DNA of 64,000 nt, taken from NCBI GenBank assembly GCA_003222895.1, contig QHXI01000076.1:1-64000 (forward strand), in the 5' to 3' direction. Below the pieces are notes generated by a model. That model did not search any database. It worked only from the letters and a program-made list of their open reading frames with translations, and had not been told where the DNA came from. Below, one piece after another: positions 31,009 to 52,555 of the stretch (its first letter is position 1; each line of letters starts with the position of its first letter). A program made the position numbers and the translations under genes. The stretch is from Acidobacteriota bacterium. GTDB lineage: Bacteria > Acidobacteriota > Blastocatellia > Pyrinomonadales > Pyrinomonadaceae.

Positions 31009-31695
31009 TCAATGCGACGTGTCGTCGGTGTGCAGCGCGGAAACCATCAAAGTTCGCAATGCATTCTGATAAGCCGCTTGCGAATCTGATTGGTAAGGAA
31101 CGACGGCGTAGTGAATTCGCGCGCCTGAAACACTGAAGAAACTGTGATATGCGAGATAGTGTTTGCTTGCGGTCAAAGTTCGCAACGTCGAATGCAAACT
31201 TGGATCGAGAAATACAAAATAGACTGCATCGCTTTGCGGTTCACCGAGTTGTCCGCCATTGAACAGATCCGTCAACACATCCTGAATTTGCAAGTCGCTG
31301 ATATTCCGATCGCCGGCAACATCGAGTCTCTCCAGACTAAAGGTTGGACCGAATCGATTGCTTATTCCTGCCTCAGTAACTTCGTCCATTTGCGCGTGAT
31401 CGCGAATCGTCGAAAGCAACTTGCTCAATCTTGTTTCGCGGGCGCGCAGCGAAGTATCGGCCCAGCCCGGGCCAAGAAAAATGCTGTATTGAGAGAAATC
31501 CGAGACGTTGGTTTGACCCGGTTTCACCAGGCCCGTCAATGGGCCACTCGCTGGTTGGATCAAAAAAGCCTGGCCGCCATCTTCATTGAGAACCACCTTC
31601 TCGCGCTGGTCCTGCCGCTCTTGCGGCCATGGCTGTTGCGCGGAAGCGATTGCCGCGCAAGCCAGAATGATTGGAGCAATAAGCTTAATTCGCAT
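31009..31695 (-). CDS. Unrecognised secreted protein
   Basis: A 228-residue protein with a clear signal peptide (IAPIILACAAIASA) and a good ribosome binding site (GGGAG). The mature part has alternating strands and helices, with hydrophobic runs at about 150-200 (AVYFVFLDPS, LAYHSFFSVSGARIHYAVVPYQ). I do not recognise a family. It begins 14 bases after the Ig-like protein gene, which itself follows the NRPS genes by 13 bases, so it appears to be the last gene of the NRPS minus-strand operon. Confidence 0.65.
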   Translation of the reverse strand: MRIKLIAPIILACAAIASAQQPWPQERQDQREKVVLNEDGGQAFLIQPASGPLTGLVKPGQTNVSDFSQYSIFLGPGWADTSLRARETRLSKLLSTIRDHAQMDEVTEAGISNRFGPTFSLERLDVAGDRNISDLQIQDVLTDLFNGGQLGEPQSDAVYFVFLDPSLHSTLRTLTASKHYLAYHSFFSVSGARIHYAVVPYQSDSQAAYQNALRTLMVSALHTDDTSH

Positions 31696-31709
31696 ACTCT
31701 CTCCCAGGA

Positions 31710-33775
31710 TTACGGAGTCATTGCATTCAGCGCAAAGTCATCGACGACGAATGACGTCTTCAAACTCGAATCTTCCACGCCGATCAAATAGATTTGAATC
31801 GCCTGGCCTTTGTATGAACTCAAATCGAAAGTAACTTGCGTAAACCCCGTCGCCGCGTTCAGGTTCGAATAGGTTGCCAGCGTCGCCAACACTGAACCCG
31901 AGGAATTTCGCACCTGCACTTTGAGCGTGTCGTACGAAGTCGTCGCGGTCGTCTCAGTCGTGTCGATGTGCAGCCAGAAAGTCAGCGATGCCGCGGTCGC
32001 CGTCGATGGAATCGTCACCGATTGCTGCAAGGTATCTGTATGAACCGAGCCGTAACCATTCAACCAGGCCTTCCACGATCCGCTGTGCGCAGCTTCAAAG
32101 GCGGAGTTATCAATCACTGAGCTAGTAACCGACCACGGCGCGGGATTCGATGGACCGTTCTCGAAACCTGGATTGCCGAGCAACTGCTGTGTCGTGCCGC
32201 CGCCGCTGCTGTTTACGGTCAGGCTGATCGTCGTCGAATGTGTTTGTCCGCCGCCCGTGCCGGTTATCGTGACGCTGTAAGTTCCGGTTGCCGTGGCGCT
32301 GCCTGCCAGGAAGGTGACTGTCGACGATCCGTTGCCGGGCGCGGCGATCGACGCCGGATTGAAATTGGCAGTTGCGCCTGCGGGTAAACCCGAGGCTGAA
32401 AGCGCGATCGCAGAACTAAAGGCGCCTGAGATCGTCGTCGTAATGGTTGAATTCGCCGAACTCGCCTGGACCATCGATACGGCCGAAGGATTTGTCGAAA
32501 TAGCAAAGTCGCCAGCCGCTCCTGACGTGCTCGCATTCAAAGCAAAATCGTCAACGATGAAGGATGTCTGCAAGCTGCTGTTCTCAGTGCCTGCGAGATA
32601 GATCTGAATTGATTGCCCTTTGAATGACGTGAGGTCAAACGAAACTTGAGTGAAGTCGGCGATCGGATTCAGGTTCGAATACGTCGCTAACGTCGTCAGC
32701 ACCGCGCCCGACGAATTACGAATCTGAACTTGCATTATATCGTTCGCCGCCGTGGTCGTCGTTTCTTTCGTATCGATGTGCAGCCAGAACGAAAGTGTCG
32801 CGCTCGCGACATTCGCAGGGATGCTCACGGTCTGAAACACTGTGTCGGTATGTGCGCTGCCATAACCGTCGAGCCAGGCCTTCCAGGATCCGGTGTGCGA
32901 CGCTCGATTACTTGAGTTGTCGATCACGGCGGCAGTCACAATCCACGGTCCGGGATTCGCTGATCCATTTTCAAATCCGGGATTGCCCAATAGTTGCTGT
33001 GTCGAGCTGCCACCGCTCGTGACGGTCAAATTGATCGTAATCGAATGCGTCTGTCCGCCGCCCGATCCGGTAACCACCAAATTGTACGTGCCTGCCGGCG
33101 TCGAAGCTCCCGCCGTGATCGTCAACAAAGACGTACCCGAACCCGGCGCAGAAATGGACGACTGGCTGAAATTGGCCGTCGCTCCCGCCGGCAATCCGGA
33201 AATTGAAAGCGAAACAGTCGTGTTGAATGGTCCTGAGAGTGCCGACGTGATCGCGGATGTTGTCGCGCCGCCCTGCGCGGCCGTCAACGACTGTGGTGAA
33301 GCAGACAACGCGAAGGTCGAGTCGAAAGTGATGTCGAGAATTGGATGTAACTCGATTCCGTTTGACGCCTGTCCCGTCTGTCCTTCGAGATAATCAAAGA
33401 ATCCAACTCCGGTAATGCGCACCGGCACGTCAACATTCTGAAAAGTATCTGTCACCGAAAACATCGCATCAAATTGCGCGCGCGCATGAGCAATGCCCGC
33501 AGCGAACGGACTGCCGGCGGGAATGCAGCTCGGCGAAGGGATCTCAGCAATCATCGTTCGTCCTGCTGAGTCGGCAATCACCATGTGGTAATCAAGGTCG
33601 TACATCAAAGCGTATTTCTTCAGCGTTGCATTGAGCACATAGACTTTCTTTTCCGCCGCTTGCCGCCGATCTTGACGGGCCAGCGCTCGCCTGAGCATTG
33701 ACCAAAGGCTTCAACCGGAATGAACAACAGCAGTAGTCCGATGAGCAGACCGAACTTACCCGGGTTTTTTTTCAT
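31710..33775 (-). CDS. Secreted protein with two tandem Ig/galactose-binding-like units, frameshifted near its start
   Basis: The main frame (31710-33698) has an N-terminal domain (YALMYDLDYHMVIAD, TMIAEIPSPSC) and two tandem units of about 265 residues. Each unit has an Ig-like repeat rich in Ser/Thr/Gly (LPAGATANFS) and a jelly-roll-like domain (LLGNPGFENG, WLHIDT, FIVDDFALN). Unit 1 is about 32508-33314 and unit 2 31713-32507. The signal peptide (FGLLIGLLLLFIPVEAFG, from ATG 33775) and the CSGERWPVKIG segment lie in a different frame. They join near 33660, where roughly 60-70 residues expected in relatives seem to be missing. It starts 13-22 bases after the NRPS stop. Confidence 0.75.
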
Positions 33776-33797
33776 CGTCGTCATGGAATAAACCGCT

Positions 33798-36700
33798 TCA
33801 GTAATTGGCGCAGCTTTTCAGAAGACATGCGCGTAACTCTTCCGCCAGCAGACTCACGCCAGGTTCTTTAATAATGTTCAGGTGATTGCCCGGAATTTCG
33901 TGCGTCTCGATATTTCCGCGCACCAGTTCGCGCCATCCATCTTTCGAGTCGTAATCCGCCGTCAGGTCGCTCGCGAGAAACAACGTCACGTCACCCGAAT
34001 AAATCTGCGGCTCGTAGTCTTTGACTGCCGTGAAGTTGATCTCTTCGATGTTCTTGAGAACCGGAGGCAGCGGCCGGCCGATCTTCTGATAGATCTTGTA
34101 AGCACGACGATAAATTTTGTGCTTCGCTTTCGCCGGGGCGAAACGCAGCTTGGTCGCCAGATATTGCAGCTGGTCTGCCGCGTTCAATCCGCGCAGATTC
34201 GTAAGATGCGACTGCCATTTCCTGGCGCGCCGCGCGAAACGTTGACCGAAAGACGAATTGCCCGGCAACAACTTGAAGTAACCCGCCGGAAAAGTATCGA
34301 GCAAAGCTAACAGCCCGACCTGCTCGCCGGCGGCTTCAAGCTGGCAGGCTATCTCAAACGCGATCGTGCCGCCGGACGATCGACCGCCGAGCAGGTATGG
34401 TCCTTCCGGCTGAATCTCAAGCAGCTCGTTCAGATAATGCCCGGCCATTTCTTTGATCGTGGTGTGCGGCTCTGACTTTCCGTCCAGGCCTTTTGCCTGC
34501 AATCCGTAGAACGGCTGATCCGGACCGAGTAATCGCGCAAGATCGTGATACTCGAGCACGTTGCCGCCCGCGGCGTGAATACAAAAGAACGCCGGGCGCG
34601 CGCCACCGGCTTGAATCGGCACCAACGACGACCACGCGGATTGCCAACCTTCGTCGCGCAAAACGCGCGCGAGCTGTCGCACCGTCGGCGCCTGAAACAA
34701 AGTTGCCAGGGGAAGATTCTTGCCAAAGAGTTTTTCGATTTGCGCGAACAGTTTGACCGCGAGAAGCGAGTGACCACCCAGCTCGAAAAAGTTTTCGTCA
34801 GTTCCAATTGGGTGAACGTTCAGGACTTGTTCCCAAATGCGTGTGAGCTTCAATTCAAGTTCATCCGCCGGCGCCACGAAACTTTTTTCGGCTTCGCGTT
34901 TGAAGTCGCCCGCCGCGGGTAACGCGCGGCGATCCACTTTGCCCATCGGAGAGAGCGGTAACGATTCGAGCACCACAAAAACCGAAGGCACCATGTAATC
35001 GGGCAAACGCTGCTGAAGATATTCGCGGACTTCGCCGGTGGCGACCTCGCCGTTGCGCGGAACGAGATAAGCTGCGAGGTGCTTGTCTCCGCTGTCTTTG
35101 CAAGCGATAACCACGGCTTCACTAACTGCCGGGTGTTCCGCGAGCGCGGCTTCGATCTCGCCAAGCTCAACGCGAAATCCGCGAACCTTAACTTGATTGT
35201 CAACGCGTCCGATGAATTCAATTTCGCCGGTTGCGCGATAACGAACTAGATCGCCGGTGCGATAGAGACGCGAACCGTTTCCTGAAAATGGATCGCGCAC
35301 GAATCGTTCGACGGTTAACTCAGGACGATCCAGATAGCCGCTGGCCAACCCATCGCCGCCGATGAAAAGTTCACCCGGCACGCCGACCGGCGCCGGATTC
35401 ATTTTCTTGTCGAGTACGTAAACAGACGTGTTCGCGATCGGAAATCCGATCGGCACTGAGCCGTTTACTTTCGCCAGATCGTCGACGGGATAACAGCACG
35501 TGAACGTCGTGTTCTCAGTCGGACCATAACCATTGATGAAGCGACAGCTTTTCAGATCGTTCACAACTTTTTTAACGTGCGGAACGGAAAGCACGTCGCC
35601 GCCCGCGAGCAATTGATGCAGCCCGCGCAGATCGTCGAAATGATTTTCGACCATTAAATGAAACAGCCCGGCAGTCAGCCACAGCGTCGTGACCTGGTGA
35701 CGTTTGATTGCCGCGCCCAACTCTTTCAATGAAGGAGTGCCCGCAGGCAGCAGCACCAAACGCGCGCCATTCAGCAGGCTGCCCCAAATCTCGAAGGTCG
35801 ACGCGTCAAACGAAATCGTCGAGCACTGCAGAAAAACTTCCTCGGGCGAGAACGATGCATAGTTCGTGTTCTTCACCAGCCGCACGACGTTGCGATGATT
35901 GACGGTGACGCCCTTCGGCTGTCCGGTCGAGCCCGAGGTGTACATCACATACGCGAGATTGTCCGCCGTCGTGATCGCTTTGGGATTTTGATCGCTCTCG
36001 CGCGCGAGTTCGTCGGCGATTCGATCGAGACAAACAATCTCGGTCCCTGCATCCGGTAAGTTCGCGAGCAGCGAACTCGTCGTCAAAAGCAGCGGCGCGC
36101 CTGAATCCTCCAACATGAATTCCAAACGCGTCTGCGGATAAGCAGGATCGAGCGGAACATACGCGCCGCCGGCTTTCAGGATCGCGAGGATTGCGACAAT
36201 CATCTCCGGCGAACGATTAATGCAGACACCAACGCGCGCATCAGGTGTCACGCCACGATGGCGCAGATAATGAGCGAGTCGATTTGCGCGCGCATTCAAC
36301 TCTGCATAAGTAAGTGACTGATCGTCCCACTCGAGCGCAAACGCATCTGGCGTACTCGAGACTTGCTGCTCGAACAATTCCTGAATGCAGTTGTGCGACG
36401 GATAATTCGTTTTGGTGTTGTTCCACTCAACGAGCAACTGATGACGCTCGCGTTCAGTCAAAAGCGGCAGCTCAGAAATTTTCTGCGCCGGATTTTCGAC
36501 GATGCCTTCGAGCAGCGTGCGAAAGTGGTTGAGCATTCGCGCGATCGTTTCGTTCTCCAAAAGATCGGCGTTCGATTCGAACAGGCAATCCAATTCATCG
36601 CCACGCTCGACCGCATCGAACGTCAGGTCGAAATTCGCCATGATATTATCGACGCGAAAATGCTCGGTCTTCAGTCCGGGCAGTTGCAGCGGCAGAATCT

Positions 36701-37925
36701 CTTCACTCTGCAACACGAACATCACCTGGAACAGAGGGTTGTGCGCCAACGTGCGCTCAGGCTGAAGCTCTTTCACCAAACGCTCGAATGGAAGATCCTG
36801 ATGCGCATAAGCCCCCAAGGCGGTTTGCTTGACGCGTTCGAGCAACTGTCGAAACGTCACGTCGCCCGAAAGATCGGTGCGCATCGCCAGCGTGTTGATG
36901 AACAATCCGATCAGCTCTTCGGTTTCCGGCCTATGCCGTCCCGCGATCGGCGTGCCGATAACAATGTCTTCCTCGCCGGTGTAGCGATGCAGCAGCACTT
37001 GATACGCCGCCATCAAAATCATGAACAGCGTGACGTTTTCTTTCTGGCAAACCTGTTTCAGACGCTTCGTGAGTTCAGCCGGCAAAGTGATCGTCTGCTG
37101 CGCGCCGCGAAATGCGCGATACGCCTGAACGTTTGGCCGAGGATGATCGGTTGGCAGCTCGAGCGCCGGCGGCAACGTCGCAAACTGCTGTTTCCAATAA
37201 GCAAGTTGTGATTCGTAAACCTCGCCGTCGAACCATTCGCGTTGCCAGACGGAATAGTCACCGTACTGAATCGACAGTTCGGCAAACGGCGAAGGCTTGC
37301 CTGACGCGAAGGCTTCATAAAGCGCGGACAACTCGCGATGAAAGATTCCGATGGACCAACCGTCAGTGACAATGTGATGCATCGTGACAAGCAGGATGTG
37401 CTCCTGCTCCTTCAGGCGCAGCACGACAGCCCGGATCAATGGCCCTTGCGAAAGGTCGAACGGCCGGCGCGCATCATGCCGAAGAATCCGCCAGGCTTCG
37501 ACATCGCGTTCGGCTTCCGCTTTTTCGCTGAGATCGATCAGCGGCACATCGAGCATGAATTCCTGAACAACTTGCTGCGGCGTTCCATCGACGATTTTGA
37601 AAATCGTGCGCAGCCCATCGTGACGCGCGACGATTGTCTGCAAAGTCTTGACGAGAGCTTCAACGTCAAGTGGGCCCGTGAGGCGCGCGGCCGTCGGCGA
37701 GTGGTAGAGCGACTCGCCCGGCATCAGTTGATTCAAAACCCAAAGGCCTTGCTGGTTGTAAGAGAGCGGCGCCGTCGTTCGATCCGCGCGACGCTCGATC
37801 GATCGCGTCGTCTTGGCGCGCCGGTTCTTTTGCATCAGGCGCAGCTCGAGCAGCTTGCGCTGCGCCGGTGAAAGCCCAGCCAGTTGCTGATCGATATTCG
37901 ATTGTGAAGCGCGTATTTCCATCAT
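33798..37925 (-). CDS. Nonribosomal peptide synthetase, C-A-T-TE, predicted Val-specific terminal module
   Basis: A 1375-residue termination module. Condensation domain about 50-480 with MHHIVTDGWSIG; adenylation domain about 510-1010 with YTSGSTGQPKG and YRTGDL; carrier domain with GGHSL (phosphopantetheine Ser1053); thioesterase about 1105-1375 with GGRSSGG (nucleophile Ser1183) and a late His (GNHLNI, His1348). By alignment to PheA the A-domain code reads D-A-F-W-L-G-G-T-F, a known valine code. It begins 12 bases after the A-T-C-A-T gene, so it receives that peptide, adds Val and releases it by hydrolysis or cyclisation. Confidence 0.93.
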   Translation of the reverse strand: MMEIRASQSNIDQQLAGLSPAQRKLLELRLMQKNRRAKTTRSIERRADRTTAPLSYNQQGLWVLNQLMPGESLYHSPTAARLTGPLDVEALVKTLQTIVARHDGLRTIFKIVDGTPQQVVQEFMLDVPLIDLSEKAEAERDVEAWRILRHDARRPFDLSQGPLIRAVVLRLKEQEHILLVTMHHIVTDGWSIGIFHRELSALYEAFASGKPSPFAELSIQYGDYSVWQREWFDGEVYESQLAYWKQQFATLPPALELPTDHPRPNVQAYRAFRGAQQTITLPAELTKRLKQVCQKENVTLFMILMAAYQVLLHRYTGEEDIVIGTPIAGRHRPETEELIGLFINTLAMRTDLSGDVTFRQLLERVKQTALGAYAHQDLPFERLVKELQPERTLAHNPLFQVMFVLQSEEILPLQLPGLKTEHFRVDNIMANFDLTFDAVERGDELDCLFESNADLLENETIARMLNHFRTLLEGIVENPAQKISELPLLTERERHQLLVEWNNTKTNYPSHNCIQELFEQQVSSTPDAFALEWDDQSLTYAELNARANRLAHYLRHRGVTPDARVGVCINRSPEMIVAILAILKAGGAYVPLDPAYPQTRLEFMLEDSGAPLLLTTSSLLANLPDAGTEIVCLDRIADELARESDQNPKAITTADNLAYVMYTSGSTGQPKGVTVNHRNVVRLVKNTNYASFSPEEVFLQCSTISFDASTFEIWGSLLNGARLVLLPAGTPSLKELGAAIKRHQVTTLWLTAGLFHLMVENHFDDLRGLHQLLAGGDVLSVPHVKKVVNDLKSCRFINGYGPTENTTFTCCYPVDDLAKVNGSVPIGFPIANTSVYVLDKKMNPAPVGVPGELFIGGDGLASGYLDRPELTVERFVRDPFSGNGSRLYRTGDLVRYRATGEIEFIGRVDNQVKVRGFRVELGEIEAALAEHPAVSEAVVIACKDSGDKHLAAYLVPRNGEVATGEVREYLQQRLPDYMVPSVFVVLESLPLSPMGKVDRRALPAAGDFKREAEKSFVAPADELELKLTRIWEQVLNVHPIGTDENFFELGGHSLLAVKLFAQIEKLFGKNLPLATLFQAPTVRQLARVLRDEGWQSAWSSLVPIQAGGARPAFFCIHAAGGNVLEYHDLARLLGPDQPFYGLQAKGLDGKSEPHTTIKEMAGHYLNELLEIQPEGPYLLGGRSSGGTIAFEIACQLEAAGEQVGLLALLDTFPAGYFKLLPGNSSFGQRFARRARKWQSHLTNLRGLNAADQLQYLATKLRFAPAKAKHKIYRRAYKIYQKIGRPLPPVLKNIEEINFTAVKDYEPQIYSGDVTLFLASDLTADYDSKDGWRELVRGNIETHEIPGNHLNIIKEPGVSLLAEELRACLLKSCANY

Positions 37926-37937
37926 CGGTTGAATCGA

Positions 37938-40900
37938 TTACGCCGCCGCTTGTTCAGTTACCAGTTCCGCTTGCAGATGCTGCTGGGCTTCTTCTTCAGA
38001 CATGCAGGCAATCTCTTCGAGCAATTTCGCTAACTCGTTCTGCGATTCCTTTTCAGCCACGCGCGGGTAAAGCAACTCGGCGAGACTCGCGATCGTCGGC
38101 GCCTGAAAGACGTCGACCATCGTGAATTGCACGTCGAGATCGTTGCGCACCAGCGAAACAACTTTCGCCGCCAGCAATGAGTGTCCGCCGAGATCGAAAA
38201 AGTCATCGTGCGCGCCGATGCGTTCGAGGTTGAGCACTTGACGCCATGTCGACGCGAGCAACTCTTCGAGCGGTGTCGCAGGCGCAACGAAAGTTTCGTC
38301 GGCTTCCGGTTGCGACTGCGGCGCCGGAAGCGCGGCGCGATTAATCTTGCCGTTCGGCATCAGCGGCAACCCCTCGATTATTTCAAACAACGCGGGCACC
38401 ATGTACGAAGGCAGCTTGCCGCGCAGGAGGTTGCGGAGTTCACTCGCGCTCGGCTGCAGGCCTTCTTCCGCCACAACGTAAGCGACCAGTCGCTTATCGT
38501 GATCTTCGCGCAGCACCACGACGCACTCATTCACGCTTTCGTGACTACGCAGCGCCTGCTCAATTTCTTCGAGCTCGACGCGGAATCCGCGAATCTTGAT
38601 TTGATTGTCGGCCCGGCCGAGGAAGTCAAGAATTCCATTCGCGCGATAACTAACGATGTCGCCCGTCCGGTAGAGACGTTCGTCGGGATCGTCGCTGAAC
38701 GGATTGCGAATGAATCGTTCGACAGTGAGATCCGGCTGATTCAGGTAGCCGCGGGTTACGCCGGGACCGCCGACATGAAGTTCGCCGGCGACACCGATCG
38801 GCACGGGCCGCAGTGTCTTATCCAAAACGTAAACCGGCGTGTTCGCGACGGGCCGCCCGATGGGAACCGCGCCTGATCGATTACCTTCGCGCGAATTCAT
38901 GTCCCACATCGTGCAGGCGATCGTCGTCTCAGTCGGGCCATAGGTATTGATCAGACGAATGCGCTCGCCGACGCTTTTGTGCCAGGCAGCGAAGCGATCG
39001 GCAGACGCCTTTTCGCCGCCGATGATCACCAGCCGAGCACTTTCCGGCATCTTCAGGTTGTCATCAGCCAACGCGCCGGTCAGTTCGTGCCAGTACGCCG
39101 TCGGTAGATCGAGAATCGATACGCGCTCTTCTTCACAAAACTGCGCGAAGTCCTGCGGCGAACTGATCATGTCGTCGGTGCGCAGGACCAACGCGGCGCC
39201 GTTCGTCAGCGACACGTAAATTTCTTCCGCGCTCATGTCGAACGAGAGCGACGCGAACTGCAACATCCGATCGTTGGGTGTGATTTCGTAGACTTGATTT
39301 GCCGCGCGGGTGAAGTGAACCAGCGAGCGATGCTCAATCGCGACGCCCTTCGGGTTGCCGGTTGAGCCCGAAGTGTAAATCACGAAGGCGACGTTCTCCG
39401 GATCGACGTTCGTGGTTGAATTAGCATCGCTTTCTCGGGAAATCATTTCCCAGTCGCTGTCGATACAAAGCACCTGCGCACCGCCGACGGGAATTTCTTT
39501 CACCAGATGCTGTTGAGTGATCAGGAGCGCGAGCTTAGCGTCGTCAACCATGAAAGCAATGCGATCGCGCGGATAATTCGGATCGAGCGGCACGTAGCCG
39601 CCGCCGGACTTCAGCACGCCAAAGACCGCAATCAGCATGTCGAGGCTGCGCTCGACGCTGATGCCGACGAGAGCTTCCGGCTCGACGCCTTGCTTTTGCA
39701 GATAGTGCGCAACCTGATTCGCCCGCGCGTTCAGCTCACCGTAGGTCAACTGCTCGCCATTAAATTCGGCGGCCAGCGCTTCGGGATTTTTCGCGGCTTG
39801 CGCCTCAAACAATTGATGGATGCCGGCATTTTGAGGAACATCGATACGATTGCTGTTCCATTCGACCAGCAGGAGATTGCGTTCGTGCTCTTCAAGCATT
39901 GAAAGATCGGCCACGCTCGCTGCCGGTTCTGCCACGATCGCTTTCAACAGATTTTGGTAATGAGCCAACAGGCGCTCGATCGTTTCCGGCGCGAACAAAT
40001 CCGTGGCGTACTCAAACGAAATTGAAATACCGCTCGCGTCTTCGCTCACGTCCAAACTCAGATCGAATTTGGCGGCTTCGCTTTCGATATCGATTGTCGA
40101 GAACTTGGTTCCGTTTACCGTCAGTTCCGGCTCGGGCATGTTCTCGAACGAAAACATCACCTGGAACAACGGTGAACGATTTGCTTTACGTTCCGGGTTC
40201 AACTCTTCAACTAATTTTTCGAACGGAAGCTCCTGATGACAGAAAGCACCGAGCACGGTTTGTCGCACGCGCACGAGAAATTCGCGGAAGCTGGGATTGC
40301 CGTTGAGATCGCCGCGCAGCACCAGCGTATTAACGAAAGCGCCGATCAAATCTTCAGTCTCGATCATCGAACGCCCGGCCACCGGCGTGCCGACGACGAC
40401 GTCTTCCTGTCCGCTGTAACGAAACAGCAGCGTTTGAAACGCCGCCAGCAACGTCATGAATACTGTGGCATTTTCGTTTCGACTCAAGCGGCGAATCGCA
40501 TCGGTAAGTTCGGCCGGCAACACAAGCGAAATGCGACGGCCTTCATAACTGCGCAGCGATGGCCGCGGAAAATCCGTCGGAAGATCCAAAGCCGTCGGCG
40601 CGTCAGCGAGCTGCTGCTTCCAATAATTCAGTTGGCGATCGATCGTGTCGTCTTGCAGCCAACGACGTTGCCAGAGCGCGAAGTCCGCGTATTGAATCGA
40701 CAACTGCGGCAGCGAACTCCGCCGTTCGTAGTTGTGATAGAGCGAAGTCAGTTCGCGCCACAGCACATTGATCGACCAACCGTCGCAAACGATATGATGA
40801 AGCGTAACGAGTAAAACGTGCTCGCGAATATCGAGCTTCAGTAATCGCGCCCGAATTAATGCACCGCTGCCGAGATCGAAAGGCCGAGTCCCCTCCTCGG

Positions 40901-43161: not shown

Positions 43162-44064
43162 CTATTTTTTGGCTACCTGCGTTTCTTCCTTGCTGATTTC
43201 AATAATGTTTCCGACCTTATGTTTCAGATCGCTTTGCACACTCACAAAAACATTTCCCTGATCGTCGACGGTCACGCCCTGCACATTTTTGAGGTGCCCG
43301 CCGAACGCCGCGATCGTCTTCAACTCTTCACCCGGCGTGTACACGTAAAGTTTTCCGTTGCGACTGTCGGTGATGTAGAGAGAGCCTTTCGAGTAGTAGA
43401 TCGTTTCCGGCGAGAACGAATCGTTGCGATCGATGATGCGATGCAGCTTTCGATTCGCGTCGAGCAGATAGAGAACGTTGTCTTCGTTGTCGGCTATGTA
43501 CAGATTGCCCTGCTCATCAAAGACCATGCTCTCGGGCTTCGTGATGCCGGCGTCTTTGCCGAGAAACTCGGTCACGTTGCCGTCGCGCGTCACACGAAAG
43601 ACTTCATGCTGTTCGCCATCGCCAACTAACAAGGAGCCATCGCGAGCCAGCGCGATTCCTTCGGTTGAAATCAAGCCTTTGTCTTTGCCGGCAACCTCGC
43701 GTAGCTTGCCGTTGGCGGTGTACTCCCAAAGGCCGCCCGCATCGTCGTCGGTAAAGAAAACGTTGTCCTGGGCATCGATCACCAAATCTTCAGGCGACAA
43801 GAATCCAACGCCAGCGTCCGCCAACTTCTTCAACCCTTCATTTCTATCCCACGACTCAAGCGCCACGCCGCCCTCATCTGCGAAGTAAAGCTTGCCTTTG
43901 TGCCACAACAATCCGTCGGGCGAGCCGATACCGATTTTGTTCGTCGCGAACAATGTCGCCTTATAAGAGTGATCGGTCATGATCACAATGCCTTCCTTCT
44001 GCACCTTGCACGAGGTCAGGAAGAGAAAAGCGAATGACGCGATGGCGATGCTAAATTTCTTCAT
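43162..44064 (-). CDS. Beta-propeller lipoprotein, SMP-30/NHL-like
   Basis: A 300-residue lipoprotein (lipobox LTSC, lipidated Cys at residue 19) with a six-bladed propeller pattern: SPDGLLWHKGKLYFADEG, PEDLVIDAQDNVFFTDDD, STEGIALARDGSLLVGDG, PESMVFDEQGNLYIADN, SPETIYYSKGSLYITDS and VQGVTVDDQGNVFVSVQ. These match SMP-30/gluconolactonase or NHL-type blades; some relatives are lactonases. It is 37 bases upstream of the NRPS gene on the same strand and so part of that operon. A role in binding or hydrolysing the peptide product is possible but unproven. Confidence 0.8.
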   Translation of the reverse strand: MKKFSIAIASFAFLFLTSCKVQKEGIVIMTDHSYKATLFATNKIGIGSPDGLLWHKGKLYFADEGGVALESWDRNEGLKKLADAGVGFLSPEDLVIDAQDNVFFTDDDAGGLWEYTANGKLREVAGKDKGLISTEGIALARDGSLLVGDGEQHEVFRVTRDGNVTEFLGKDAGITKPESMVFDEQGNLYIADNEDNVLYLLDANRKLHRIIDRNDSFSPETIYYSKGSLYITDSRNGKLYVYTPGEELKTIAAFGGHLKNVQGVTVDDQGNVFVSVQSDLKHKVGNIIEISKEETQVAKK

Positions 44065-44117
44065 AAGTATGATTTCGAATTAAGCAGTCTCATGGTCGGG
44101 CGACTGCCCCGCTTATA

Positions 44118-44972
44118 TCAACTCATTCCCAGCAGCACGTGCCGCCGCATAGCTGCCAATAATCCAAGGAAAGCTCTGATGTGAATCATCGTGCTCGAAA
44201 CTTCGAAGGCGACGAGAAAGATAACGGCGCTGGAAAGAGCGCTGTAGCGAAGCGTGAGCGAAGTCAGCTTCTCGAGTAGTCCGCTGAATCGTTTTCGCAG
44301 TACAAATTGAATCAGTGACACCTCAACGATGGCGACCATCGCGCCCGCTGCGATATCCAATGGCGTGTGTTGCGCGCTGATCATCTTGCCGCCCATAATC
44401 ACAACCAGCGTCCAGCCGAGTGCGAGCCATCCCAGTCGCCGCGACGCCAGCCAGATACCGAGGGAGATCGCGATGAAGAAACCTGCATGGTCGCTGGGAA
44501 ACGATCCGAGGTCGTTGGTTTCCACATCGCCGCTCAACAACGCGCGATAATTCTTCTGACTCTCTTCGTCGAGCATGAACCGCACAGGCATGCGCTTCAT
44601 TTCCACCAATTGCTCGCCTTCGAGCCGGTAAATCTTTTGTGACTGGATTTCCGGGCGCGGCAGGAAAATCGTCTTCGAAAGTACCTTGGTCGTCGTGATC
44701 ACGCAGACCGCGGCAATGAGAGTCGCGATCAGAATCTTGCGCCGCGCATTCGTGCTGTTCGTTGATTTGCCGCCGTACCAGGCGGCCAGAAAGCAACAGC
44801 CGATCACGCCCGCCTTGGCCAAATCGTTGTCGAGAAAGAACGCGACGAGGCTGTCGAACAGCCACGATCTGCCGGCCGCACTGTTCAAGAGCAGCAGCAG
44901 CTTATCGTTCAAATCCGAAAGCCCGCTCGTGAGCGAAGCCAGAATCAATGGCATTAATGCTGAAATGACCAA
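44118..44972 (-). CDS. PAP2-superfamily membrane phosphatase
   Basis: A 284-residue membrane protein with about six hydrophobic helices and the three phosphatase motifs: KTIFLPRP (KxxxxxxRP), FPSDHAG (PSxH) and SAQHTPLD (SxxxHxxxD). The family includes undecaprenyl-pyrophosphate phosphatases such as BcrC, and lipid phosphatases. The start appears to be TTG 44972, preceded by GGAGG at good spacing; ATG 44954 is an alternative. It is the first gene of the minus-strand NRPS operon. Given the PAP2-type bacitracin resistance proteins, self-protection of the producer is a reasonable guess. Confidence 0.85.
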   Translation of the reverse strand: MVISALMPLILASLTSGLSDLNDKLLLLLNSAAGRSWLFDSLVAFFLDNDLAKAGVIGCCFLAAWYGGKSTNSTNARRKILIATLIAAVCVITTTKVLSKTIFLPRPEIQSQKIYRLEGEQLVEMKRMPVRFMLDEESQKNYRALLSGDVETNDLGSFPSDHAGFFIAISLGIWLASRRLGWLALGWTLVVIMGGKMISAQHTPLDIAAGAMVAIVEVSLIQFVLRKRFSGLLEKLTSLTLRYSALSSAVIFLVAFEVSSTMIHIRAFLGLLAAMRRHVLLGMS

Positions 44973-45138
44973 AATAACCCCTCCGACTCATCTGCGAGTC
45001 ATCAGCTGAAATAAATGTTCAAAACACACAACTTGCCAGAAAACGGCGGGCTCGCGCGGCGATCACAATTTTTGTCGCTAATTGTTTCGCCAAAACTGTG
45101 GGGAAACTCCGTGCTATTAACCATTTAACTATTGCGTA
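44973..45138. promoter_or_regulatory. Divergent promoter region of the NRPS locus
   Basis: This gap separates the two divergent arms of the NRPS locus and must hold both promoters. A short inverted repeat (GACTC-ATCTGC-GAGTC, about 44987-45000) and an AT-rich stretch near 45065-45090 are the only notable features. I cannot point to a specific -35/-10 pair. Confidence 0.4.
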
Positions 45139-47064
45139 GTGGCTGAAGATTCGCCCTTCACATTGAGTGCCATGTCAACTGCGTTAATCCGTTCGAGTCT
45201 CAACATCCATTCATCGTTGACGGCAAGATTGATCGCCCCGCCGAGTCCTGTGCGACCGGATGCAGGCAACGAGTCGATTGTCGAAATGGTCGCGGCGCGA
45301 GCGATCGCTACGCCGAATGGTCCCGCGGTCATCTGCCGAGATGAAGTGTTGAGCTACGCCGATTTGGATCGTCGCGCGAACCAACTCGCTAATCGTCTGA
45401 TTGCGCTCGGAGTGAAAGCTGGGAGGATCGTTGCCTTGTGCGTCGATCGTTCGATTGAGTCGGTAATTTCGACGCTGGCGATCATGAAAGCCGGCGGCGC
45501 GTTCCTGCCGCTCGATCCGAAGTATCCGATCGATCGTATAAGATTCTTGCTGAACGACGCGCAGCCGCGCGCGTTAATTACCAGAGAAAATTTGGCCGAT
45601 CAGCTAGACGGCGGCGCCTGGGACATTATCAATATCGACGTTGACAGATTCGCAGCTTGTTCAAGCGAAGCGCCGATCGTTGAGATCGTGAAGACCCAGC
45701 TCGCGTACGTCATCTACACGTCGGGATCGACGGGCGAGCCAAAGGGCGTCGAAGTTACTCATGAGGGTTTGCTAAATCTTATTTTCTGGCATCGAACCGC
45801 CTTCGATGTAGCGTCGCGAGATCGCGCGTCGCATCTCGCGGGTGTCGGCTTTGATGCTTCGGTGTGGGAAGTCTGGCCTTACCTCACAGCGGGTGCTTGT
45901 TTGTATTTGCCCGATGAAGAGACGCGCCTCTCGCCGAGTTTGCTGCGTGATTGGATCGTTGAGAACCAAGTTACGATCAGTTTTCTTCCGACAGCCTTGG
46001 CTGAAGCTTTGATGATTCTCGATTGGCCAGACGAGACGGCGCTGCGATTTCTGCTCACGGGCGCTGACACGTTGCATCGTTACCCGGGCGACCATCTGCC
46101 GTTCACCGTGGTGAACAATTACGGGCCAACGGAATGCACCGTCGTGGCGACTTCGGGCTGTATTAATTCAACGGATGTGTCTGATCGGTTACCAACCATT
46201 GGACGCCCGATTGACAACGTGGACATTTACATCCTCGACGAAAATCGTGCGCCGGTCCGCGATGGCGAGGAAGGCGAGTTGTACATTGGCGGCGCCGGCG
46301 TCGCGCGCGGTTATCTCAATCGGCCTGATCTAACTGCCGAGAGATTCATTGCGGATCCGTTCAGCGCAAAATCCAGTGCCCGGCTTTATCGCACCGGCGA
46401 CCGGGCGCGGCGACTCGCAAGTGGCGACATCGCTTACCTCGGCCGCGTTGACGATCAGATCAAGATTCGCGGGTTTAGAATTGAGCCGGCTGAGATTGAA
46501 TCGGCGCTTGATCGGCATCCGGCGATCGCTTCGAGCGTGGTCATCGCGCGCGGCCCGAATTGTTCTGACAAGCGACTCGCTGCATACATCGCCATGCGCA
46601 ACAGCAGTACTCCGGCGGCGGGCGAACTTCGCAATTTCCTCGGCTCATCGCTGCCCGATTACATGCTGCCGTCGCTGTTCGTGAAAATTTCCGCGCTGCC
46701 GCTAACCAGCAACGGCAAAATCGATCGCGCTGCGTTGCCTGAGCCCACGATTGAAAACACACTCCGCGACGACGACTTTGTCGCGCCCCGCTCACCGCTT
46801 GAAAAGAAACTCTCGGACATCGTTTGCACGCTGCTCAAGCTGGAGCAGGTCAGCGTTAACGACAACTTCTTCCTGCTCGGCGGTCATTCGCTGCTGGGCA
46901 CGCAATTGATCGTGAAGATTCACCGCGGTTTTGGAGTAGACGTCGCGCTGCGCGCGTTATTCGACGCTCCGACTATTGATGAGTTATCCAACGAAATCGA
47001 ACGGCTAATCATCGCTCGGATTGAAAGCATGAGCGAAGACGAAGCCCAGAGATTGCTCACTTGA
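45139..47064 (+). CDS. Free-standing A-T didomain NRPS, predicted Leu-activating
   Basis: A 641-residue protein with one adenylation domain (about 45-545, YTSGSTGEPKG, YRTGDR, SNGKIDR) and one carrier domain (GGHSL, Ser584), no C domain. The specificity residues, aligned to PheA, read D-A-W-F-L-G-N-V-V, a known leucine code. The C-terminal tail (IESMSEDEAQ) resembles that of the A-T-C-A-T enzyme. The start is GTG 45139 or ATG 45172; neither has a strong ribosome binding site. The next gene is a P450, the pairing used in novobiocin- and nikkomycin-type pathways to oxidise an amino acid while it is tethered to the carrier. Confidence 0.9.
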   Translation: MAEDSPFTLSAMSTALIRSSLNIHSSLTARLIAPPSPVRPDAGNESIVEMVAARAIATPNGPAVICRDEVLSYADLDRRANQLANRLIALGVKAGRIVALCVDRSIESVISTLAIMKAGGAFLPLDPKYPIDRIRFLLNDAQPRALITRENLADQLDGGAWDIINIDVDRFAACSSEAPIVEIVKTQLAYVIYTSGSTGEPKGVEVTHEGLLNLIFWHRTAFDVASRDRASHLAGVGFDASVWEVWPYLTAGACLYLPDEETRLSPSLLRDWIVENQVTISFLPTALAEALMILDWPDETALRFLLTGADTLHRYPGDHLPFTVVNNYGPTECTVVATSGCINSTDVSDRLPTIGRPIDNVDIYILDENRAPVRDGEEGELYIGGAGVARGYLNRPDLTAERFIADPFSAKSSARLYRTGDRARRLASGDIAYLGRVDDQIKIRGFRIEPAEIESALDRHPAIASSVVIARGPNCSDKRLAAYIAMRNSSTPAAGELRNFLGSSLPDYMLPSLFVKISALPLTSNGKIDRAALPEPTIENTLRDDDFVAPRSPLEKKLSDIVCTLLKLEQVSVNDNFFLLGGHSLLGTQLIVKIHRGFGVDVALRALFDAPTIDELSNEIERLIIARIESMSEDEAQRLLT

Positions 47065-47132
47065 AGGTAATATGAACTTCAGTCTGTGTTTCCCGGCCCC
47101 GGAATCCAGAGTGAAGCCCAGCCGTAAAACTT

Positions 47133-48452
47133 ATGAGTGCCGACTCCGAATCCATCTCAACTCAATCATCGCAGACTCTCAGTCTCTATCACCTGCTCGA
47201 CCCTGAGGTGCTGGCGAATCCTTATCCGCTGTATCAACGGCTGCGCACTGAGTCGCCCGTCCATTGGGATCCGTATCTGCACGCCTGGGTCGTCACGCGT
47301 TACGACGACGTAATTACGGTGCTGCATCGCTTCTCGGCGAATCGCACGCCGACACCTGAGCAATTCGCGGCGATGGGATTGGCCGAACTGACTCCGCTCG
47401 CGCAATTGATGACGAAGCAGATGCTGTTCATGGACGCGCCGGCCCACACGCGTCTGCGCAGCCTGGCATCGCTGGCATTCGCTCCGGCAAGAGTCGAGGC
47501 GTTACGCGCCCACATTCGCGAGATTCTCGACGACTTGCTCGCACCGCTGCTCGGCGCCGGGCGCATGGATGTCATTAACGATCTTGCCGCGCCGCTGCCC
47601 GCAATCGTCACCGCAGAAATGCTTGGCGTTCCGATTTCAGATTGCCATCAATTGAAAGCGTGGTCCGCGGATTTCGCGGAAGTGCTCGGCAACTTTCAGC
47701 ACAATCCAGATCGAGCCTCGCGCACGGTCAAATGCGTCGAAGAGATGACCGCATACTTTCGCGCCGCCATTCAGCATCAGAAACAGCATCCGTGCGAAGG
47801 CTTGATCAGTTCATTTATCAACGCTGAGATTGACGGTGATCGATTGACCGAAGAAGAAATCATTGCGAACTGTATCGTAACGATGGTTGGCGGCCAGGAG
47901 ACAACTACAAATTTGATCGGCAATGGAATCCTGAGTCTGCTGCGCCATCCAGATCAGATGCAACGTTTGCGCGACGATCTTTCTCTCATTCCATCGGCCG
48001 TCGAAGAGCTGCTGCGACATGAAAGTCCGAGTCAGCACACCGCGCGAATTTGTCCTGAAGATACAGAAATCGGCGGCAAATTGATCCGCAAAGGCCAGGC
48101 TGTGATCGCGGTGATGGCCGCGGGCAATCGCGACCCGGAACGGTTTGCCGATCCCGATCGGCTCGACCTCGCGCGCGCGGACAACCGGCATCTGGCGTTT
48201 GGCTGGGCCAGCCATTTTTGTTTCGGAGCGGCGCTCGCGCGTATCGAAGGGCAACTCACTTTCGAGGCAATCGCCCGCCGCACGGCGAATCTCGCATTCA
48301 AAGCCGATCACAAAATAGTTTGGAGAGAAAACCTTGGTCTGCGAGGTCTGACCGCGCTTCACATAACTTTCGATCAAGTAATGTCGCCTCACGTAATTGC
48401 TTCGGCCGCCGATCAACCCCAAAACGGTTGCCCGTTTCATCACTCGACCTAA
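47133..48452 (+). CDS. Cytochrome P450
   Basis: A 439-residue soluble bacterial P450. The I-helix motif reads GGQETT (the usual A/G-G-x-D/E-T-T), the K-helix ExxR is EELLR, and the heme loop is FGWASHFCFG with the Cys thiolate ligand; the second Gly of the usual FGxGxHxC is Ala. It lies between the Leu-loading A-T protein and a C-A-T-TE synthetase. Known P450s in this position hydroxylate the beta-carbon of a carrier-bound amino acid, so beta-hydroxyleucine is the first hypothesis. No ferredoxin or reductase gene is adjacent. Confidence 0.93.
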   Translation: MSADSESISTQSSQTLSLYHLLDPEVLANPYPLYQRLRTESPVHWDPYLHAWVVTRYDDVITVLHRFSANRTPTPEQFAAMGLAELTPLAQLMTKQMLFMDAPAHTRLRSLASLAFAPARVEALRAHIREILDDLLAPLLGAGRMDVINDLAAPLPAIVTAEMLGVPISDCHQLKAWSADFAEVLGNFQHNPDRASRTVKCVEEMTAYFRAAIQHQKQHPCEGLISSFINAEIDGDRLTEEEIIANCIVTMVGGQETTTNLIGNGILSLLRHPDQMQRLRDDLSLIPSAVEELLRHESPSQHTARICPEDTEIGGKLIRKGQAVIAVMAAGNRDPERFADPDRLDLARADNRHLAFGWASHFCFGAALARIEGQLTFEAIARRTANLAFKADHKIVWRENLGLRGLTALHITFDQVMSPHVIASAADQPQNGCPFHHST

Positions 48453-48470
48453 CGTTTCCGGATTTCCGTC

Positions 48471-49112
48471 GTGCTCGAAAACCCTTCGCCATCTGAATCC
48501 AAACTCAATGCCGCGATGATTTCAGCGGCTAAACGGGATCTGCTTGCAAAGTATCTGCGGGGTGAAATCGATCACGACCTTTCGAGCACAATTCAGCGCC
48601 GCGGGCCGGATGCTTCGCTGCGTTTGTCCTTCGCGCAAGAGCGCCTTTGGTTTCTCGATCACCTGATGCCCGGTTCGCCGGTTTTCAACGTGCCGACTGC
48701 GGTCAGGATTTCACGGCCACTCGATCTCGACGTGCTGCAACTATGCGTTAATGAAATTGTTCGTCGTCATGAAGTTCTGCGCACCACCTTTGTCACGCTC
48801 GACGGAGAGCCGACCCCGGCAATTAATTCGCAGGCCGATGTAAAGATCGGCGTGATCGATTTGACCCGGCTCGATGAAACTTCGCGGGAATCTGAGAGTC
48901 TGCGTCTGACTAAAGAAGCCGCGCTGCGGTCATTCGATCTTTCACGCGGGCCGCTAATTCGGACCAACCTGATCAAGCTGACTGAATCCGAATCGATTTT
49001 CCTGCTCACGATGCATCACATCGTCAGCGACGGCGGATCGATCCTGATCTTCTTTCGCGAACTGTCAGCGTTGTATGCGATCGCCAGCTGGCTTACTGGA
49101 AAGAAAAGTTGA
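48471..49112 (+). CDS. N-terminal half of an NRPS condensation domain, frame broken
   Basis: A 213-residue frame with the first half of a condensation domain: LSFAQERLWFLDHLMPGS, RRHEVLRTTF, and the catalytic MHHIVSDGG. It should continue into the frame at 49109. After FFRELSALYA the expected 35-40 residues (equivalent to the SIQYGDYSVWQREW region of the other synthetases) are absent, and the frame then reads to a stop at 49112 while RQLAYWKEKL continues in the +2 frame. The start is GTG 48471 or the ATG at 48516. Either the gene is a natural split or pseudogene, or the sequence is wrong here. Confidence 0.8.
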   Translation: MLENPSPSESKLNAAMISAAKRDLLAKYLRGEIDHDLSSTIQRRGPDASLRLSFAQERLWFLDHLMPGSPVFNVPTAVRISRPLDLDVLQLCVNEIVRRHEVLRTTFVTLDGEPTPAINSQADVKIGVIDLTRLDETSRESESLRLTKEAALRSFDLSRGPLIRTNLIKLTESESIFLLTMHHIVSDGGSILIFFRELSALYAIASWLTGKKS

Positions 49113-52100
49113 GTGGCGATCTGCCTGTCCTCGATATTCCTTCCGACCATCCGCGGCCACCAGTCCAAACTTATTCCGGGGGTCGCGCGGTGGCAACGCT
49201 ATCCAAAGATTTGACCAGCGCGTTGTATGCCCTGAGTAAGCGCGAAGGAGCGACGCTGTTCATGATGCTGCTTGCGGCGTTCAAGGTTCTGCTGCATCGC
49301 TACTCTGCTAACGAAGACATCATTATCGGATCGCCGATAGCGAATCGTGCGCAGTCCGAAACTGAAGACCTGATCGGGTTCTTTCTCAACAATTTGGCGC
49401 TACGTACCAGCGTCCCGGGCGATTCAACTTTTCGCGAGGTGCTTTCGCGCGTCCGCCACACGGCGCTCGATGCCTATGCGAATCAGGACGTCCCGTTTGA
49501 AAGATTGATTGAAGAGTTAAAGCCGGAACGCGATCTCAGCCGCACATCGATCTTCCAGGTGTATTTCAATCTGTTCAGCTTTTCCGATCAGATCGATTTG
49601 CCTGACGGCGAATCGATCAATTTCGTCGACGCGTGGCTACAGTCAGAAGAAAACCTTTCGAAATTCGATCTCACTCTGTATGCCGGCGCCGGCGACAAGA
49701 CGATCAAGCTTGCATTTGTTTACAACACGGATTTGTTTGCGCCTGAGCGAATGATTTTGATGCTCGATCAATTTCAGCATCTGCTTTCGCAAATCGTTGC
49801 GCGTCCGGACGAAACAATCAGTCGATTGTCCCTCGTCACACCGTCGGCGCAAAAGTATTTGCCGGACCCGAGCGCTCCAATTGGCTCGAATGGCAACCAG
49901 GCGATCACCTCGCTCTTTTCTGCACAAGCCAAACAACAGCCGAACGCTTTGGCGCTGAGCGACCCGAACGAGCGTTGGACTTATGACGAATTGGAGCGTC
50001 GCAGCAATCAACTCGCGAATTACTTGCGCGGCAACGGAATCCGGAAGGACGACGTCGTGGCTATTTACGCGCACCGCAGTGCGCCGTTGGTCCTCGCGAT
50101 TCTCGGCGTGCTTAAGGCCGGCGCAGCTTTCACGATTCTGGATCCCGCACATCCCGCAGCGCGATTGATCGACTGTCTGCGGATTGCTTCACCGCGCGGC
50201 TGGATTCAAATCGAAGCGGCGGGAGCATTGCCGTTGGCCCTGGATGAATTTGTCGAGAAGCTCGCTTGTCGTTCTCATCTGTCGCTAAAGAGAGGGCGTA
50301 ATACGGAAAACGATCCGCTCGCGGGTTGCTCGACGAACAATCCAAACATCGAAATCGACGCGGACGATCTCGCTTACATCGCGTTCACTTCCGGTTCGAC
50401 CGGACAGCCGAAGGGCGTGATGGGTCGGCATGGTCCGCTGCCGCTTTTCACGTCATGGGCGCGAGAGAAATTCAATCTGAATGAATCCGACCGCTTCTGC
50501 ATGCTTTCCGGTTTGGCTCACGATCCTTTGCATCGAGACATCTTCACGCCGCTGCAACTTGGCGGGGCGATTTGTATTCCCGATCCAAACGATCTCGAAG
50601 CGCCGGAACGATTACGAGCGTGGCTCAAGCGGCAAGCAATCACCATCGCCAATCTCACGCCGGCGATGAGTCAGCTTCTGACAGACGGTTGTGGAATTGA
50701 CGAGCAGATCGAGTCCCTTCGTTATTCATTTTTCGTTGGCGACGTTTTGACGAGGCGCGACGTGGCGCGGCTGAAGCAGCTTGCGCCGTCGATTAGCTGC
50801 GTGAATCTATACGGCTCGACGGAAACGCAACGGGCCGTCGGGCACTTCCTCGTCGACGATTCATACGATTCATCAGGGAAAGAAATTCTGCCGCTCGGCA
50901 AAGGCATTCACGATGTGCAGTTGCTGGTTTTGAATAAGTCGCAAGAGCTATGCGGCATCGGCGAAATCGGCGAGATTTACTTTCGCACTCCGCATCTCGC
51001 GAAAGGCTACCTGGCTGATGAGAAGCTGACCCGCGAACGTTTCATCGCGAACCCGTTCACGAATGACCCCGCAGATCGTCTGTATCGCACGGGCGATCTG
51101 GGCCGATATTTGCCGAATGGAGATGTCGAGTATGCCGGCCGCGCTGATCGACAGATCAAGATTCGCGGATTTCGAATCGAGCCGGCCGAGATCGAAGCCG
51201 TGCTAACCAAACATCCCGGCGTGCGCGAAGCCGTCGTCATCGCGCATCAAAACGACCGCGATTGCCTTCTCGCCGCCTATATAGTTTGCGCTCAACCTGA
51301 GATTACGGCGTCAACTCTGCGCGACTGGCTAACTGAAAAACTTCCCGCGTACATGATCCCGTCATCCATCATGATGATCGAGGCGTTGCCGCTGACATCG
51401 AACGGCAAACTCGATCGACGTGCTTTGCCGGCGCCTGAGCACAGCGAAACCGCTAACGAGTTCGCGTGGCCGCTGTCGGCAACCGAAGAAGCCTTAGCGC
51501 TGATATGGAAAGGAGTTCTCGGGCTCGAGCACATCGACATTCACGACAACTTTTTTGAATTGGGCGGGCACTCGCTGTTGGCAGTACGTCTGTTTGCGCT
51601 GCTCGAAAAACGATTCAACAAGCGTCTGCCGTTGGCGACGTTGTTTCAAGCGCCGACGATCGCGAAACTTGCTAAAACGATCGAAGACGACGCGTCGAAA
51701 AGATCGGCTTCGCTGGCGCCGATTCAACCGTGCGGCACGCGGCCGCCGTTCTTCTGTATTCATGCTGTGGGTGGAAACGTGCTTGAGTACTACGACCTGG
51801 CGCGGCATCTCGGAAACGATCAGCCGTTCTATGGCTTGCAGTCGCGCGGGCTAAACGACTCACATCAGCCACATGAACGCATAGAAGACATGGCTGCGCA
51901 TTACGTGAAAGAGATTCGCGAGCTTCAATCTGATGGGCCTTACTTCATCGGCGGACGATCATTGGGCGGAATCATCGCGTACGAGACGGCGCGGCAATTG
52001 AAAGAGCAAGGACAGGAGGTCGCGTTGCTTGTGTTGCTTGATTCGTATCCGGTCGGCCATCAGAAGCTTTCGAACGCGGATGGGTTAACGGTTAGAGAGC

Positions 52101-52555
52101 GACGCGCGATCAGAAGAATCCAAACGCACCTTTCGAATCTTCGGCAATTGCCAACATCCGCGAAGCTAAATTACTTGTTGAGCAAATCACGGTACGCGCC
52201 GAAGCGGATCACGGGCACCCTGTGGCGCGGGGTTTATCGCTCATGCGTGAAGCTCGGCGTCGCACTGCCGCGGTCGTTGCGCAGTGTCGAACAATTCAAT
52301 TGGCTGGCGGCGCATCAATTCGTGCCAAGACTCTACGATGGGCCAGTGACTTTGTTTTGGGCGAGCGGCGATCTGCGCGCGAAGTTCGACATGATCGAAG
52401 GGTGGAGAAAGTTGGCGCCGGGTGAATTGGAAGTTCACGAGATTCCGGGAACGCACCTCGATATTATCAAAGCGCCAAATGTGGAAGAGGTCGCGAAGAA
52501 GTTGAGTGCGTGCCTGAAGATTGCACAGACTTTGTATCAGAACCGCGAGCGCTAG
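49109..52555 (+). CDS. NRPS: second half of C domain, A-T-TE, with Lys2-like A domain
   Basis: A 1148-residue frame continuing the broken condensation domain (VLDIPSDHPRP, FMMLLAAFKVLLHRYS, QDVPFERLIEEL to about residue 245), then an adenylation domain (about 270-775; FTSGSTGQPKG, YRTGDLG, SNGKLDR), a carrier domain (FFELGGHSLL) and a thioesterase (GGRSLGG, late GTHLDI). The A4 core reads SGLAHDPLHRDIFTPLQLG instead of FDxS, as in alpha-aminoadipate reductases of the Lys2 type and related A domains, so the substrate cannot be read with the usual code. The TTG at 49109 is probably not a true start. The thioesterase is a paralogue of the one at 33798. Confidence 0.88.
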   Translation: MSGDLPVLDIPSDHPRPPVQTYSGGRAVATLSKDLTSALYALSKREGATLFMMLLAAFKVLLHRYSANEDIIIGSPIANRAQSETEDLIGFFLNNLALRTSVPGDSTFREVLSRVRHTALDAYANQDVPFERLIEELKPERDLSRTSIFQVYFNLFSFSDQIDLPDGESINFVDAWLQSEENLSKFDLTLYAGAGDKTIKLAFVYNTDLFAPERMILMLDQFQHLLSQIVARPDETISRLSLVTPSAQKYLPDPSAPIGSNGNQAITSLFSAQAKQQPNALALSDPNERWTYDELERRSNQLANYLRGNGIRKDDVVAIYAHRSAPLVLAILGVLKAGAAFTILDPAHPAARLIDCLRIASPRGWIQIEAAGALPLALDEFVEKLACRSHLSLKRGRNTENDPLAGCSTNNPNIEIDADDLAYIAFTSGSTGQPKGVMGRHGPLPLFTSWAREKFNLNESDRFCMLSGLAHDPLHRDIFTPLQLGGAICIPDPNDLEAPERLRAWLKRQAITIANLTPAMSQLLTDGCGIDEQIESLRYSFFVGDVLTRRDVARLKQLAPSISCVNLYGSTETQRAVGHFLVDDSYDSSGKEILPLGKGIHDVQLLVLNKSQELCGIGEIGEIYFRTPHLAKGYLADEKLTRERFIANPFTNDPADRLYRTGDLGRYLPNGDVEYAGRADRQIKIRGFRIEPAEIEAVLTKHPGVREAVVIAHQNDRDCLLAAYIVCAQPEITASTLRDWLTEKLPAYMIPSSIMMIEALPLTSNGKLDRRALPAPEHSETANEFAWPLSATEEALALIWKGVLGLEHIDIHDNFFELGGHSLLAVRLFALLEKRFNKRLPLATLFQAPTIAKLAKTIEDDASKRSASLAPIQPCGTRPPFFCIHAVGGNVLEYYDLARHLGNDQPFYGLQSRGLNDSHQPHERIEDMAAHYVKEIRELQSDGPYFIGGRSLGGIIAYETARQLKEQGQEVALLVLLDSYPVGHQKLSNADGLTVRERRAIRRIQTHLSNLRQLPTSAKLNYLLSKSRYAPKRITGTLWRGVYRSCVKLGVALPRSLRSVEQFNWLAAHQFVPRLYDGPVTLFWASGDLRAKFDMIEGWRKLAPGELEVHEIPGTHLDIIKAPNVEEVAKKLSACLKIAQTLYQNRER

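Follow-up and report, generated by a model that had tools for sequence, protein, structure and literature searches.

A leucine-type adenylation-thiolation didomain and P450 pair, a candidate portable cassette, beside a separate nonribosomal peptide cluster in an Acidobacteriota genome

We analysed a nonribosomal peptide synthetase (NRPS) locus from a Pyrinomonadaceae member of the Acidobacteriota, contained in a stretch of 64,000 nucleotides hereafter named the window (assembly GCA_003222895.1, contig QHXI01000076.1, positions 1 to 64,000). Judging from gene content and from comparison with relatives, the locus is made of two neighbouring but separate small-peptide clusters, placed around one shared divergent gap. 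Cluster 1, or line 1, on the minus strand, encodes a PAP2 phosphatase, a propeller lipoprotein and two synthetases with domain orders A-T-C-A-T and C-A-T-TE (A, adenylation; T, thiolation or carrier; C, condensation; TE, thioesterase). Cluster 2, or line 2, on the plus strand, encodes a stand-alone leucine-type A-T didomain, a cytochrome P450 and a C-A-T-TE synthetase. By homology, line 2 belongs to a large family, spread over several phyla, that shares the leucine A-T and P450 pair. This pair seems to form a portable cassette, found nearly unchanged before many synthetases in at least six phyla, and would provide one standard block of oxidised leucine. We consider it likely that the two clusters are independent, and that in line 2 leucine is loaded, oxidised on its carrier and passed to the C-A-T-TE protein, the A-T and P450 pair acting as a portable starter.

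Layout and separability of the two lines

The genes of the two lines are as follows.

45139-47064, plus strand: stand-alone A-T didomain, first half of the cassette (Pfam AMP-binding and PP-binding; code DAWFLGNVVK; T motif LGGHSLL)
47133-48452, plus strand: cytochrome P450, second half of the cassette (Pfam p450)
48471-49112, plus strand: 5' half of the line 2 synthetase, with an N-terminal linker and the first half of C (Pfam Condensation, 6-159 of 456; frameshift at the end)
49109-52555, plus strand: remainder of the line 2 synthetase, with the second half of C, A (code DPRNFVLRAK), T and TE (Pfam)
37938-43124, minus strand: line 1 synthetase A-T-C-A-T (Pfam)
33798-37925, minus strand: terminal synthetase of line 1, C-A-T-TE, with the Val-type code DAFWLGGTFK (Pfam; code from alignment)
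43162-44064, minus strand: NHL/SMP-30-like propeller lipoprotein, conserved partner of line 1 (Pfam NHL/SSL_N/SGL; apparent N-terminal lipobox LTSC)
44118-44972, minus strand: PAP2 phosphatase, conserved partner of line 1 (Pfam PAP2)

An original prediction, made from the letters alone, had described here three synthetases, a free-standing leucine A-T didomain with a P450, and a PAP2 phosphatase with a propeller lipoprotein. The didomain and the P450 were recovered by Pfam and the leucine code was read, and the phosphatase and the lipoprotein were likewise confirmed, by Pfam PAP2 and by an NHL-type propeller with its apparent lipobox. The domain orders of the synthetases were right in outline, but the third one, C-A-T-TE, lies in two frames (48471-49112 plus 49109-52555). 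A scan of the divergent gap (about 166 bp), blind to other promoter types, found no sigma-70-type promoter.

Orthologues of line 2 (A-T, P450, C-A-T-TE) were found without line 1 in three relatives (G001, G002 and G034), and the G001 didomain adjoins a gene which, in the window, is located past the far end of line 1. The starter A domain of line 1 had no match in G001, G002 and G005 at the threshold used, and in G034 its relative, at only 50%, lies on a different contig. Line 1, together with PAP2 and the propeller, is present in G003, G004, G006 and G014; G014 belongs to another genus, and no close match to the leucine didomain was found in it. Both lines are adjacent in the window, G006, G003 and G004. 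Co-inheritance, as expected for one co-linear NRPS pathway, was therefore not what the relatives exhibited, and on this comparative evidence the two lines are separable units that are neighbours within one genus. The phosphatase and the propeller, side by side with line 1 in G003, G004, G006 and G014, are assigned to line 1.

The original prediction had proposed that two TE-ended lines imply two products, or else that one line acts in trans on the other. Since each line is inherited in some genomes without the other, we prefer two products, and action in trans is disfavoured. A joint pathway, in which both lines make one product or line 2 supplies modified leucine to line 1, might be suggested by the single divergent gap that both lines flank in the window and in three relatives, but each line has its own TE; given line 2 alone in three genomes and line 1 without the cassette in G014, we rejected this pathway as very improbable.

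The A-T and P450 pair in other bacteria

A scan with a P450 alignment gave 80 P450 loci (62-88% identity), distributed among Acidobacteriota, Chloroflexota, Verrucomicrobiota, Rokubacteria, Pseudomonadota and Planctomycetota. In 72 of the 80, the P450 is preceded on its own strand, at less than 400 bp, by an A-T didomain, usually in its own frame of about 580-770 amino acids (aa), and some of the loci without it are cut by contig ends. Among the 75 A domains with a complete code, a set that takes in the window and its relatives and counts a few loci twice, 68 carry exactly DAWFLGNVVK; the others were DAWFLGNVLK (4), DALFLGNVLK (2) and DAWFLGNVAK (1). A survey of A domains from bacteria gave DAWFLGNVVK as the most frequent leucine code (PMC12283262). 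Full-length orthologues of the didomain in four relatives are 58-73% identical to it.

A partly independent check was made on 297 genomes drawn evenly over the phylum, with some overlap with the first set. P450 matches were found in 10 other genomes. Nine loci at 64-69% identity that do not belong to the window's family were checked, and in all nine the P450 is flanked by the didomain upstream and by a C domain downstream; one distant match (43%) has neither. In two genomes of this draw the P450 is fused to the synthetase, as P450-C-A-T-TE proteins of 1830 aa (L135:4032-9524) and 1788 aa (L136:2477-7843), with the leucine didomain directly upstream. Over 52 loci, the distance-matrix correlation was 0.76 (r) between A-T and P450, and 0.59 between each of them and the downstream C, which supports a tighter coupling within the pair than with the C domain, all such correlations being also expected from shared descent. 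In a quick P450 tree the sequences grouped by phylum, and those of Verrucomicrobiota and Acidobacteriota were intermingled within a single well-supported branch, which suggests transfer. In many Acidobacteriota loci the cassette is preceded, at a distance of about 2 kb, by a gene for a stand-alone AMP-binding protein (about 530 aa, 31-35% to the leucine A domain; for example L135:13232-14821, L136:11651-13234, L038, L039, L042 and L046); none was seen in the window.

What varies is the synthetase behind the P450. In the 80-locus set it was C-A-T-TE (28), A-T-TE (8), C-A-T-C-A-T-TE (4), C-C types or TE only (3), and for 12 loci no recognisable genes were found within reach behind the P450. The downstream synthetase is usually C-first, without a loading module of its own. 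The code of its first A domain is variable: a DIEDIGTVIK type is common, others could not be matched to any residue, and some we take, partly from general knowledge, to be Gly-, Val-, Ser- and beta-Ala-like. In the window this code is DPRNFVLRAK, and the best NCBIfam model for the 49109-52555 product is TIGR03443 (aminoadipate reductase), below cut-off; DPR-type codes have been reported for AMA and Asn (PMC12283262). At the same locus in G004, the cassette is followed by a different, longer synthetase.

Predicted route, related systems and rival explanations

Under the favoured explanation, the A domain of the didomain would activate (adenylate) L-leucine and load it on its own T domain as a thioester, and the P450 would oxidise it while it is held there. 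Hydroxylation of the beta carbon is most likely, beta-hydroxylation being the usual outcome for carrier-bound amino acids. The C domain of the following C-A-T-TE protein, which has no other obvious donor, would accept the oxidised leucyl group in trans and join one more amino acid to it. The TE would then free a small product, in the window an oxidised leucine joined to a single further residue, provided that the synthetase is functional. Different bacteria would thus have placed the same cassette before different synthetases.

Such chemistry has precedents: Qui15 hydroxylates tryptophan only when loaded on the A-PCP (peptidyl carrier protein) didomain Qui18 (PMC3578932), and leucine beta-hydroxylation on a carrier was proposed for PlyR (PMC3943440). 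The pairs NovH/NovI, NikP1/NikQ and Qui18/Qui15 share with the cassette a stand-alone A-T didomain, an adjacent P450 and the predicted oxidation of a carrier-bound amino acid. The window has the hallmarks of this kind: a free-standing A-T beside a P450, a recognisable code (DAWFLGNVVK), the T serine in LGGHSLL, and in the P450 the heme cysteine, the ExxR and the oxygen-activation motif. It differs from these pairs by leucine instead of their tyrosine, histidine or tryptophan, by a P450 closest to P450BioI among solved ones, by the C-first synthetase behind the cassette in most loci, by the lack of an adjacent MbtH, and by its occurrence in Acidobacteriota and other non-actinomycete phyla. P450sky (skyllamycin) and PlyR (polyoxypeptin), both linked to beta-hydroxyleucine, have in common with it the predicted leucine on a carrier; PlyR, however, is NikQ-like and its cluster has separate free-standing A, PCP and TE proteins (PMC3943440).

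The P450 motifs FGWASHFCFG, EELLR and GGQETT are invariant in five orthologues, the heme Cys363, the ExxR and the acid-alcohol pair (ETT) being conserved. In a PDB search, its best solved relative was P450BioI (CYP107H1, 3ejb, 282.7 bits), and no chain among the best 60 matches, whose entries carry generic names, was recognisable as P450sky or another aminoacyl-PCP beta-hydroxylase. P450BioI also takes a carrier-bound substrate, but this is a fatty acyl-ACP (acyl carrier protein), cleaved at a C-C bond in biotin synthesis, and P450BioI has no A-T didomain partner. More distant P450 relatives (40-45% identity), borne by Nostoc plasmids, adjoin fatty-acyl ligase-carrier genes. These relatives together with P450BioI suggest that P450s acting on carrier-bound acyl groups form a lineage, with one branch that would serve leucyl carriers. 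The Nostoc P450s had themselves been candidate members of the cassette family, with an "AMP-binding protein" annotated next door, and were rejected: the neighbour is of the fatty-acyl ligase-carrier type, not a leucine didomain. On the Nostoc plasmid pNLP2 (L121:4612-18691), genes for a vanadium haloperoxidase, a fatty-acyl ligase-carrier, a P450 (45% identical), a polyketide synthase and an NRPS lie in a row. We give close to even chances to the wider proposal that the oxidation of carrier-bound amino acids arose separately in the cassette, with a P450BioI-like enzyme, and that one oxidised-leucine starter has been nearly fixed across at least six phyla and the synthetase behind it exchanged. 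Small peptides that begin with the same residue would then form a large unexplored family, and the leucine might be oxidised otherwise than by the usual beta-hydroxylation.

Several observations weigh against a beta-hydroxylating starter cassette. The P450 is not evidently close to characterised aminoacyl beta-hydroxylases, so that the oxidised position is ambiguous; the partner synthetase in G004 lacks a leading C domain, and in the 8 A-T-TE and the 3 TE-first loci it is not evident how a C domain would receive the oxidised leucine. The 80 loci were also picked by peptide patterns and are skewed to the closest relatives, and in the window's own genome the frame of the line 2 synthetase is broken. 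The loci with A-T-TE or only TE-type genes behind the P450 would fit a building-block factory, which frees oxidised leucine in the style of NikP1/NikQ/NikP2 for activation by another synthetase, and the echinomycin system has been proposed to release beta-hydroxytryptophan via a type II TE (PMC3578932). We find such a factory unlikely, given that a C-first synthetase stands directly behind the pair in most loci, that the P450 is fused to the synthetase in two, and that no stand-alone TE adjoins the pair in the window.

As for the broken frame, exactly 100 nt of the C domain are absent from the window, out of frame, when compared with the sister genome G006, with anchors on both sides. The deletion was placed between about 49078 and 49085. 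G006 carries the synthetase intact (1428 aa), and the 49109-52555 product is 72% identical to it; one intact C-A-T-TE frame in the window is therefore ruled out. In the repeat-protein gene behind line 1 (31710-33780, minus strand) the signal peptide is in another frame just upstream, and about 100 nt are deleted, out of frame, relative to G003 and G004. Since the window's assembly is a metagenome bin of 167 contigs (those of its relatives that carry names are metagenome bins of Blastocatellia/Acidobacteria), decay and assembly error are indistinguishable for both deletions, and the line 2 synthetase appears broken or misassembled. That cluster 2 is, in this genome, a decaying remnant without product has in our opinion somewhat less than an even chance, and it would not conflict with the favoured explanation of the family. 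The two deletions, the second within the neighbouring 31710-33698 gene, speak for decay; however, the didomain and P450 frames are still open, the deletions may be artefacts of the bin, and when frames over the window were compared with those of relatives, no other convincing break came up.

Line 1, neighbouring genes and significance

Codes of the first two A domains of line 1 were read by eye from their A4-A5 stretches. The first (41423-43124, minus strand) gave SSRDMSMGIK, without Asp235. A serine at this position was also found in G003, G004, G006, G014 and G034 (FSS[AS]RRQ or FSSSVRQ), and the starter may be other than an ordinary alpha-amino acid. The second, DMEDIGTIAK, is only loosely similar to the reported Orn/Lys code DMEDVGSVDK (PMC12283262). 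The third A domain is Val-type in the window (33798-37925) and Gly-like in G006 (L015:2206-4962), an apparent domain swap between sister genomes. For PAP2 and the propeller, self-protection or product processing would be our guesses. Plasmid records searched by megablast with line 1 had only short matches at conserved motifs.

Two further genes behind line 1 are neighbours with at most a putative role in it.

31710-33698, minus strand: secreted-type repeat protein, also behind line 1 in G003 and G004
31009-31695, minus strand: small protein with an apparent signal peptide, for which no Pfam family was matched

Elsewhere in the window (53833-56866, minus strand), related small secreted-type proteins are encoded in tandem and share "NRPxLxxDGKLxPY" repeats; the one checked had no Pfam family.

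The absence of an adjacent MbtH protein or phosphopantetheinyl transferase, pointed out in the original prediction, is true of the window, but the genome has one MbtH (contig C119) and three genes of the phosphopantetheinyl transferase family, and we do not retain this absence as a sign of oddity. A second NRPS cluster of the same genome (G000:C19, L026) has an A domain 48% identical to the leucine didomain. The claim that no described cluster has this combination of genes fits our results, except that the combination is the local neighbourhood of two clusters, and that line 2 has relatives in many other bacteria. In the literature searched, which leaves out most subscription papers, neither the cassette nor the same gene set was found described, so that "undescribed" is provisional. 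In a study of Acidobacteria rich in biosynthetic gene clusters, none of the Ca. Angelobacter clusters was linked to MIBiG (PMC9723581). Aminoacyl oxidation by an A-T and P450 pair is already known (NovH/NovI, Qui18/Qui15); what would be new is its widespread leucine version with an exchangeable synthetase.

If this picture is correct, a large and as yet uncharacterised group of small nonribosomal peptides would be marked by one conserved two-gene unit, itself a simple handle for genome mining. Its carriers would belong mostly to uncultured soil phyla (Acidobacteriota, Rokubacteria, Verrucomicrobiota, Ktedonobacteria), with a few cultured ones such as Thermogemmatispora carboxidivorans (L041) and Dictyobacter kobayashii (L043). 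The cassette would be a natural starter module reused with many partners, including the two natural P450-synthetase fusions, and possibly a second evolutionary route to the oxidation of carrier-bound amino acids.

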